The notes beneath the pieces are model-generated. The model saw only the letters and a program-made list of their open reading frames with translations. It did not search any database and was not told the origin of the DNA. From positions 1 to 28,562 of IMG/VR virus record IMGVR_UViG_3300004097_000037: 28,562 nt of DNA. One strand, given 5' to 3'. Within the stretch, counting starts at the first letter, position 1. Each line of letters begins with the position of its first letter. Source of the DNA: a virus. The position numbers and the translations under genes are program-made. Below are positions 22,119-28,562 of this stretch, piece after piece.

Positions 22119-22940
22119 ATGAAATCTTATAGGATTGAACACAGATTGACGCGAAAATGCAACTATTCATGTAGTTATTGTTATGAAGTATTTGACGATA
22201 CTTTTGATAATATAAAAGTCGATTTTGAAGGATTAAGATATTATATTGAATCATTTAAAGATACAATTATCGAATATAACATTATAGGTGGTGAACCAAC
22301 TAGGCACCCACAATTTAAAAAGCTGATCGAATTTCTTTTAGAATTTGACAATCTTCACATTTTGATCACTAGTAACGGTTCAAAATCATTAAAGTTTCTT
22401 AATTATATTAGTACCGATAGGTTAAAAATATTATTCAGTTATCACAACTCTGATACTAATATCGACGATTTTATGGTTAAAGTTTCCGAAATTTCAAGCC
22501 ATGTAAAGTGTGTTAATGTCGTGGATAATCCACAATTGAACAATAATGCATATGAAGAATATCACGAATTGAAACGACAACTTTTAGAATATGATATTGA
22601 ATTGCATTTATACCCTGAACTCGGTAAACTTGAAGAAAAACCAAATGAAAGAAGTCAAGTTATTAATATACAGGAACCATCAGTATTTGAGGACGTAAAA
22701 AAATTGTGGTATTATAAGAATGGTTTATATCAATCTTGGTTAGATGATTCTTGTAAAACTAAAGGTAGACGATGCAGTATAACAGAACATGAAAGTGTTG
22801 TGCAAGATAATAAAATATACCCTTGTGTGTATTTTGCTAATAAAGAAAAGAGTGGTGTAGACTTTAAAGATTGCGAATCTATAAAGCCTAAATTTTGTCG
22901 CTTTGAATATTGTTTATTTAATGCTCAATTTGTTGATTAG
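22119..22940 (+). CDS. Radical SAM enzyme with Cys-rich (SPASM-like) C-terminus
   Basis: A 273-aa protein with AAAAGGTTAAG upstream. Residues 14-21 read CNYSCSYC, the C-x3-C-x2-C motif that binds the radical SAM 4Fe-4S cluster, followed by Tyr. IIGGEP (55-60) is the SAM-binding GGE motif, then HILITSNGS and KILFSYH fit further barrel strands. Six Cys lie in the last 65 residues (212, 219, 236, 252, 260, 265), typical of SPASM/twitch domains that hold auxiliary clusters in peptide- and protein-modifying enzymes. Substrate is unknown. It is a single plus-strand gene between the adhesin unit and the spanins and overlaps the outer spanin gene tail to tail by 23 bases. It is not QueE-like by the spacing and residues around the motif. 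Confidence 0.85.
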   Translation: MKSYRIEHRLTRKCNYSCSYCYEVFDDTFDNIKVDFEGLRYYIESFKDTIIEYNIIGGEPTRHPQFKKLIEFLLEFDNLHILITSNGSKSLKFLNYISTDRLKILFSYHNSDTNIDDFMVKVSEISSHVKCVNVVDNPQLNNNAYEEYHELKRQLLEYDIELHLYPELGKLEEKPNERSQVINIQEPSVFEDVKKLWYYKNGLYQSWLDDSCKTKGRRCSITEHESVVQDNKIYPCVYFANKEKSGVDFKDCESIKPKFCRFEYCLFNAQFVD

Positions 22941-27423: not shown

Positions 27424-27885
27424 TTATTCCCATTTTTCATTATCAAAACCCAATCGCACAAAATGTACGCCTTGTGTATTTATCAAATCTTTCGATAAAC
27501 GCAAAAACTCTTTTCTGGTTTTCGGCTCATACAATGGGATTTTTAACAACTCACACAATTCCGCATCATCGTCGATCGTGTGGCCTTTACCTATTTTACC
27601 ATAACAACCATTAGCACCCGCATTAACAAATATAACACTACCAGATTGTCGACGTAAAACTAATTTAATTTGTTCATAACTTTTATATAAAACAAAACCA
27701 CAAACACCGTAAATAAATACGGTTTTATTTTGAGCAGATAACCCTTGCGCAAGGTTTACCATATGTGGTTCTTGAATACCACAATTAACTTCGTTATGTA
27801 CTCGGTGAGGGAACATATCCGCGTGTAAAAAGAATATATCATTACTCTTAATACGATTGATGAATTTTGCTAGTAACTTTCTCAT
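27424..27885 (-). CDS. Stand-alone transketolase pyrimidine-binding domain (split ThDP enzyme, C-terminal part)
   Basis: A 153-aa protein. The segment from residue 34 reads NCGIQEPHMVNLAQGLSAQN, the same layout as the N-x-G-I-x-E-q-x-m-v-n-x-A-x-G-L of transketolase and DXS pyrimidine domains; Glu39 matches the Glu that activates thiamine diphosphate. Further family signs are FIYGVCGFVLYKSYEQIKLV, VIFVNAGANGCYGKIGKGHT, DDDAELCELLKIPLYEP and a final VRLGFD strand. The C-terminal transketolase domain that normally follows is absent. A gene cut by the right edge appears to be the matching N-terminal subunit. Substrate is unknown; such split enzymes move two-carbon units between sugars. The ATG overlaps the upstream stop by four bases. 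Confidence 0.75.
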   Translation of the reverse strand: MRKLLAKFINRIKSNDIFFLHADMFPHRVHNEVNCGIQEPHMVNLAQGLSAQNKTVFIYGVCGFVLYKSYEQIKLVLRRQSGSVIFVNAGANGCYGKIGKGHTIDDDAELCELLKIPLYEPKTRKEFLRLSKDLINTQGVHFVRLGFDNEKWE

Positions 27886-28358
27886 TTCTTCTGACCTTTA
27901 TATTCAAAATCTAAAACAACACCACTATCATGTACGATTTGTATTTTCAAAACACCATCATTTATAACTTCAGGGGTATTTAAATTACTATCACAAACGA
28001 CATCATAACCTTTAAAATCATTATCATAAATCCACGTATTAATAAAGTACTTTATAGAGTTTCTATACACACCATCATTAATTTTACCGCTTACATTAAC
28101 TAAAAAGAATACATCACTCTCTAGAAAATCACGAATTCTGATTATTTCTTTAGACATTTTAAGTTTATACAGATTTAATGATCTATGCGCTTCATTTATT
28201 CTAACCATCGAGCTATCATCTTCGATGTTTTCGATAGCTTTATTATGACGTAACCCAATAATGAACGCGTCAGATAATTGGCTATGTTTAGTATCAGAAA
28301 AATGGTACTTTCTAAGTAATGATTTTTCTTCTTCAGTAAATGTATTTAATAATGACAT
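27882..28358 (-). CDS. Unknown 158-aa protein between the two transketolase-like genes
   Basis: The ATG overlaps the preceding gene by 13 bases, and the stop overlaps the next start by four, so it is coupled to both transketolase-like genes. The N-terminal half is helical and charged (TEEEKSLLRKYHFSDTKHSQ). The C-terminal half (YRNSIKYFINTWIYDNDFKG, then YDVVCDSNLNTPEVINDGVL, then KIQIVHDSG) resembles in outline the C-terminal domain of tail sheath proteins: a helix, then YxVxCD, N, and G-x-L-x-I. That likeness is by eye only, and a virion role would be odd here. It could instead be a third subunit or regulator of the ThDP enzyme. Confidence 0.7.
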   Translation of the reverse strand: MSLLNTFTEEEKSLLRKYHFSDTKHSQLSDAFIIGLRHNKAIENIEDDSSMVRINEAHRSLNLYKLKMSKEIIRIRDFLESDVFFLVNVSGKINDGVYRNSIKYFINTWIYDNDFKGYDVVCDSNLNTPEVINDGVLKIQIVHDSGVVLDFEYKGQKK

Positions 28359-28562
28359 AATTCATCCATAATTTCTGCGTGTTCAGTTTCAGTTAGTTTA
28401 GAATAATGATATTTAACGGGATCATCCATAAATCGTTGTACTGGATAACCTTTTACAGTATCAAAAAATATACAAACAGCGGGTAAAAATGGGTTATCGG
28501 CAACTTCTAACATATGTTCTAAAAAGAAATAATCATCTACATTTTCGTAATTACAACATGTA
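28346..28562 (-). CDS. C-terminus of a transketolase N-terminal (ThDP-binding) subunit, cut by window edge
   Basis: Seventy-two codons are visible, ending TAA at 28346-28348. The peptide has PAVCIFFDTVKGYPVQRFMD followed by DPVKYHYSKLTETEHAEIMD. This matches the end of transketolase N-terminal domains: a hydrophobic strand, D/T-TVKG, a short turn with F-M, then H-Y-x-x-LTxxE and a helix. In full-length enzymes the TVKG loop lies just before the link to the pyrimidine domain. Here the chain stops instead, as in split transketolases. The diphosphate-binding GDG motif would lie beyond the window. With the pyrimidine-domain gene two genes downstream it would complete the enzyme. The visible part is short, so the call is moderate. 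Confidence 0.6.
   Translation of the reverse strand, partial: TCCNYENVDDYFFLEHMLEVADNPFLPAVCIFFDTVKGYPVQRFMDDPVKYHYSKLTETEHAEIMDELCHY

Follow-up and report, generated by a model that had tools for sequence, protein, structure and literature searches.

The closest described system is the split transketolase of the bacterium Carboxydothermus hydrogenoformans, ChTK-N/ChTK-C (PDB 6yaj, 6yak), which is active on hydroxypyruvate and aldehydes and contacts its thiamine diphosphate (ThDP) cofactor through Asp148, Asn178, Lys68, Glu55, and Phe80 (PMC7661550). Its C chain carries the Pyr domain together with the C-terminal transketolase domain (TKC), about 300 amino acids (aa) in all, and its GDG and KGH motifs are intact. 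Bacterial split transketolases encoded in surface-polysaccharide clusters (loci L081 to L091) likewise consist of two chains from adjacent genes, with a C chain of about 300 aa that includes TKC and with GDG and KGH mostly kept. Split transketolases have also been proposed to add a hydroxyacetyl group to keto sugars in miharamycin and amipurimycin, a step that is unproven; the acetyl version has been shown for YerE, acting on CDP-4-keto-3,6-dideoxyglucose (PMC12247030). Four partial transketolases have been reported in the hypervariable region of a freshwater SAR11 genome (PMC6811365). The fold and the chemistry are thus known. In the open-access literature, we found no description of a TKC-less two-chain form, of its spread in T4-type phages, or of the gene cassette described below: no paper was found on a phage split transketolase or on phages in combination with transketolase, radical SAM, and halogenase, and titles and abstracts on Campylobacter phages and transketolase yielded nothing relevant.

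The DNA analyzed here (the window) is 28,562 bp long, which a record lookup showed to be the whole of an IMG/VR record, and it carries a T4-type major head protein (phrog_138, E 1e-91) along with other T4-type tail and DNA genes. At its right end lie three overlapping minus-strand genes, with a subunit pair split at the same PP/Pyr point as in ChTK. The Pyr subunit gene (27424 to 27885, minus strand) encodes 153 aa with a transketolase-type pyrimidine-binding domain containing Glu39 (within NCGIQEPHM), Phe64, and His102, and lacks TKC. The 3' end of the PP subunit gene (28346 to 28562, minus strand) encodes the last 71 aa of that chain, with the pattern TVKG...HY..LTE and the C-terminus DTVKGYPVQRFMDDPVKYHYSKLTETEH; it is cut by the contig end, beyond which lies about three quarters of the subunit. 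Between them, an orphan gene of 158 aa (27882 to 28358, minus strand) overlaps both neighbors, by 13 nt with the end of the PP gene and by 4 nt (ATGA) with the start of the Pyr gene. Coordinates and layout agreed on ORF recheck with a sequence-only reading of the window, which had proposed a split transketolase-like ThDP enzyme at this position. Because the window is the entire record and ends at 28562, the rest of the PP gene, its own GDG-equivalent motif included, lies out of view.

Profile searches supported the assignment of both halves. Against a Pyr profile from which the window was left out, the Pyr ORF matched at E 1e-55 and Glu39 was invariant among its relatives, bearing out the earlier claim of a stand-alone Pyr domain that keeps the cofactor-activating glutamate. 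The gene also matched phrog_23258, a family of unknown function, at E 2e-29, and scored 13.7 bits against Pfam Transket_pyr (cut-off, 27). Because this Pfam score alone is weak, a routine domain scan misses the gene, and the sequence-only reading caught something that such a scan does not. The 71-aa PP tail, which had been read as the end of a transketolase N-terminal subunit, found no convincing match in single-sequence searches; against a profile of 33 intact homologues it scored 23.4 bits, with the best of 5,000 shuffles at 4.7, and that claim also held. With values of this size for Pyr and PP, the two assignments are more than chance. In close pairs with unsaturated synonymous sites, dN/dS ranged from 0.03 to 0.18 for both genes, indicating purifying selection.

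Profiles of the two chains, built independently, converged on one solved enzyme. ChTK was the best match of both: the PP profile first matched 6yak, the N chain (E 1.1e-22; DXPS, 7e-9), and the Pyr profile first matched 6yaj, the C chain (E 1.6e-13). Rows for HIV protease in the Pyr profile search were taken as chance matches. Structures were predicted with AlphaFold2 from alignments that left out rows from annotated phage records. The PP chain of locus L020 (pLDDT 95.7) superimposed on 6yak over 235 of 237 residues (Z 29.4, rmsd 2.1) and on DXPS with Z 25.0. The window's Pyr chain was modeled with a pLDDT of 84.4, falling below 50 at residues 96 to 99, and gave Z 17.5 to DXPS and Z 16.3 to 6yaj over 146 residues. 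Both halves were thereby placed in the transketolase-type fold, where the sequence-only reading had asked whether structure searches would point to another; together with the cofactor site, this fold is well supported by profiles and models. In a viral structure library, the best matches of the PP and Pyr models were Campylobacter phage proteins. The Pyr model also matched, end to end, a chain of 165 to 167 aa in PDB entries 9u8q to 9u8s (Z 14.2, 146 residues aligned), which we take from the PDB title to be the ThDP-dependent alpha-imino acid decarboxylase AzcB/AzcC. This chain shares 9% identity with the phage Pyr chain and ranks below the transketolase and DXPS rows; at the level of models, it sets a precedent for Pyr-type subunits that are small and stand alone.

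Active-site correspondences were drawn by combining profile alignments with the contact residues reported for ChTK (PMC7661550); counts were taken over 33 to 34 sequences, and PP residues are numbered as in L020. PP Asp110 and Asn140 occupy the positions of the metal ligands Asp148 and Asn178, and profile alignments equate Lys68 with PP Lys44, Glu55 with Pyr Glu39, and Phe80 with Pyr Phe64. All of these are invariant, as are Pyr His102, which corresponds to His473 of E. coli transketolase (TK), and PP His16 and His217. The last two we take to be the probable counterparts of E. coli TK His26 and His261. PP His73 is mostly kept among homologues, and the TK His100 equivalent is kept in 29 of 33; the positions of His73 and of His461/Asp469 are presumed here partly from E. 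coli and yeast numbering. Literal GDG, which had been expected in the full upstream gene, is absent from the intact homologues: all 33 carry (S/T)D(A/G/S)...DxN instead, and the first glycine is never kept. Since not one of the 33 has lost the Asp that binds the metal or the Asn farther along, the absence of literal GDG is not decisive. KGH has become KPF, so that the TK His66 position is Phe46 (33/33), and Glu stands at the TK Gly114 position in 32 of 33. At the E. coli TK His461 position stands Gly90 (34/34), and the Asp469 position (residue 98) is variable, with C, F, L, A, or I; the same region is altered in the bacterial split transketolases of surface-polysaccharide clusters. Judged from profile alignments and E. 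coli numbering, the canonical TK donor and acceptor residues (His66, His461, and Asp469 equivalents) therefore appear to be absent. We read this pattern as an apparently intact ThDP site, with cofactor residues in common with ChTK, next to an altered substrate site.

The pair is not unique to the window. A close search returned three IMG/VR loci and 14 Campylobacter phage records, and an alignment of these matches then retrieved 48 viral loci. The sequence-only reading had judged such an enzyme unusual for a T4-like phage; the pair turns up repeatedly among large T4-type phages and in the Campylobacter Firehammervirus group. A search of 32 carrier records detected the T4-type major head protein in 10; of the 9 records that exceed 140 kb, 7 had it, and most of the others were fragments. 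Outside the Campylobacter phages, an intact PP gene lay upstream of Pyr on the same strand in 33 of 33 distinct loci, nearly all of them viral contigs; the gene ends overlapped in 13, were adjacent in 2, and had something between them in 18. In these relatives, PP chains measured 222 to 252 aa and Pyr chains 148 to 167 aa. The two genes are inherited together, as their distance matrices correlated (Mantel r 0.79, p 1e-4), a value to which phage relatedness itself contributes. Firehammervirus phages CP21, CP220, and WX1 encode the same two families (phrog_18761 and phrog_23258), also TKC-less and with radical-SAM genes annotated elsewhere nearby; unlike in the other phages, both genes are kept but lie far apart. 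Their PP chain (192 aa; L018:4944-5522 and L019:4944-5522) has lost the C-terminal TxKG...WHY segment and keeps the Asp/Asn metal ligands. Some of these records already name the proteins "putative transketolase," and others call them hypothetical. The PP half also matched records labeled "Bacteriophage sp.," Listeria, Acinetobacter, and Staphylococcus, several of which, being short unannotated contigs, may be bacterial DNA. Relatives of the window reached through its nearby RNA-ligase gene (L070 to L074) contained neither half within the stretch examined.

Among 84,980 bacterial and archaeal genomes, two loci were found; the scan relied on one short peptide pattern, so by itself it says little about how rare the pair is in cells. 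The first locus (L068) scores identically to the viral contig L024 and is probably that virus. The other (L069/L075 to L077) is a 52-kb Bdellovibrionales contig with chromosomal-looking genes, in which a radical-SAM-rich island holds the pair, and a T4-type head gene was not found in the genome that carries it. Given this setting, a bacterium can carry the cassette too, and phage-host gene exchange is a possible origin of the island.

No TKC domain (PF02780) was detected in the window (control, 14/14), as the sequence-only reading had noted, nor above the cut-off in 14 carrier records. With two transketolase-family domains present and TKC lacking, family membership therefore applies to those two domains and not to the third. 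Among 192 genomes of the phylum to which the Bdellovibrionales metagenome-assembled genome belongs, 28 had a Pyr match with an E value of 1e-15 or lower. Apart from the 161-aa Bdellovibrionales copy, all of these were frames of 296 to 384 aa, the size of Pyr plus TKC; the closest bacterial homologues found are thus all long enough to keep TKC. In trees, the phage sequences grouped with the Bdellovibrionales copy and apart from other bacterial ones (support 0.77 for Pyr and 0.87 for PP, with a narrow cellular sample), and the window's Pyr branch was long. When three bacterial homologue regions were scanned, two contained RfbH together with the glucose-1-phosphate cytidylyltransferase RfbF, and in one of these CDP-glucose 4,6-dehydratase (RfbG) was present too; the third had a sugar-aminotransferase-type gene beside the pair. 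By gene content, two of these homologues sit in CDP-dideoxyhexose polysaccharide clusters.

The phage pair likewise keeps biosynthetic company. A radical-SAM-type cluster, defined by single-linkage clustering that also pulled in one glycosyltransferase-like gene, was represented near the pair in 32 loci, a count that includes the window's own gene. Other recurrent neighbors were SDRs (31 loci), a PIG-L deacetylase (27), a polysaccharide-deacetylase-like gene (25), the cluster 6 family (21), and a Trp-halogenase-like gene (13). At L001:1147-10478, L008, L015, L027, and other loci, several radical-SAM genes accompany PP and Pyr, two SDRs, PIG-L, and the polysaccharide-deacetylase-like gene, often with a Trp-halogenase-like flavoprotein as well. 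The visible flank of the window is without this radical-SAM/SDR/deacetylase cassette and instead shows tail-assembly-chaperone-like, phosphoesterase, and RNA-ligase genes, so a role in the window's own phage would be an extrapolation from relatives. The window's radical-SAM gene (22119 to 22940, plus strand) is on the strand opposite to its neighbors and weakly resembles the cassette radical-SAM proteins (best, L061, E 1e-22).

We propose that the Pyr chain (about 17 kDa) and the PP chain (about 26 kDa in homologues) pair up as a transketolase-family ThDP enzyme, made of two chains and lacking TKC, that moves a two-carbon (C2) unit to a sugar-like acceptor, a reading to which we assign a probability of roughly 0.72. 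The split ThDP enzyme of the sequence-only reading is supported by the convergence of both profiles on one split transketolase, by the predicted folds, and by the PP gene found in every one of the 33 loci. By analogy with the Carboxydothermus enzyme, it would be an alpha2beta2 assembly of two PP and two Pyr chains, each active site lying between a PP and a Pyr chain. On the PP side, Asp110 and Asn140 would hold the metal and Lys44, probably with Lys202, the diphosphate; on the Pyr side, Glu39 would activate the cofactor and Phe64 would stack on its pyrimidine ring. A C2 unit would be cleaved off a donor and then passed to a carbonyl acceptor, and C2 transfer is what the enzyme probably performs. 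As to the acceptor, a (nucleotide-)sugar formed along a biosynthetic pathway would be the most likely candidate, rather than a pentose-phosphate intermediate, because the residues that read sugar phosphates have changed and the relatives sit in surface-glycan clusters or in radical-SAM/SDR/deacetylase cassettes; even so, we assign a sugar-type acceptor tentatively. The miharamycin and amipurimycin transketolases and YerE, likened by their described chemistry, offer a possible working likeness in C2 transfer to a keto sugar, although YerE itself belongs to the decarboxylase superfamily.

The same two-chain enzyme might instead use pyruvate or another 2-oxo acid, as DXPS, PDH-E1, or decarboxylases do, and move or release an acetyl or acetaldehyde unit rather than a ketol. 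The Pyr model, which ranks DXPS slightly above 6yaj, is consistent with such a donor, as are the Phe at the TK His66 position and the incomplete retention of the His100 equivalent, and YerE and AviB1/B2-type enzymes do such chemistry on keto sugars. However, the PP chain is nearer to TK than to DXPS both by profile and by fold (Z 29.4 versus 25.0), and it retains His16, His217, and mostly His73, with His102 kept on the Pyr side; we consider a 2-oxo-acid enzyme unlikely, if worth keeping in mind. The changes in GDG and KGH, the truncated Campylobacter PP chain, and the long Pyr branch of the window could also be signs of a decayed or repurposed pair that keeps its ThDP fold for binding or structure without catalysis. 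Against such decay stand cofactor residues that are invariant across 33 to 34 diverged sequences, purifying selection on both genes, and partners that are kept together, and a working YerE-type enzyme has CDG in place of GDG (PMC12247030). Loss of catalysis is thus improbable.

Earlier work has counted phage transketolases among the genes of carbon metabolism (PMC4053976, PMC12713726), and the pair could accordingly be an auxiliary metabolic gene, an ordinary transketolase that raises host pentose-phosphate flux for nucleotide synthesis. The Gly at the His461 position, the nonconserved Asp469 position, the KPF motif, and the loss of TKC all argue against this function, and the neighbors are biosynthetic rather than pentose-phosphate genes, making it very improbable. 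The cassette and the bacterial cluster contexts favor C2 transfer to a sugar-like acceptor over pentose-phosphate metabolism. Among the roles raised in the sequence-only reading, the making of a modified sugar is plausible by analogy, and an NTP-pool role is not favored. More speculatively, the TKC-less transketolases spread among phages could be carbon-branching enzymes in natural-product-like pathways comprising radical SAM, U32-like, flavin-halogenase-like, SDR, and deacetylase genes, placing a hydroxyacetyl or acetyl branch on a keto sugar or nucleoside that ends on the phage, phage DNA, or the host surface. If active, the two-chain enzyme proposed here would be a transketolase-type catalyst made from two small chains with TKC dispensable, a very small scaffold for forming C-C bonds. 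With this assignment, two "unknown" PHROG families gain a likely function, and attention falls on a cassette rich in radical-SAM genes that recurs among T4-type phages.

In relatives, the slot between PP and Pyr usually holds a gene whose L001 relative is tryptophan-halogenase-like; other occupants are a 293- to 296-aa cluster 6 gene, an SDR-like gene, a repeat protein, and small genes. The window's orphan gene had no relative in phage records, in IMG/VR (close matches), or among cassette neighbors, and its weak, partial matches to tail-sheath, POTRA, and SieB proteins were discarded; it may be only an insertion where relatives hold other genes. Because the occupant varies, from halogenase-like, SDR, and small genes to the orphan gene of the window, the slot looks like a place of gene exchange. 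The cluster 6 protein (L001:2807-3622; 21 loci) is about 277 aa long, with conserved Cys residues and a weak Peptidase_U32 match (E 0.002), and is perhaps an iron-sulfur U32-like protein.
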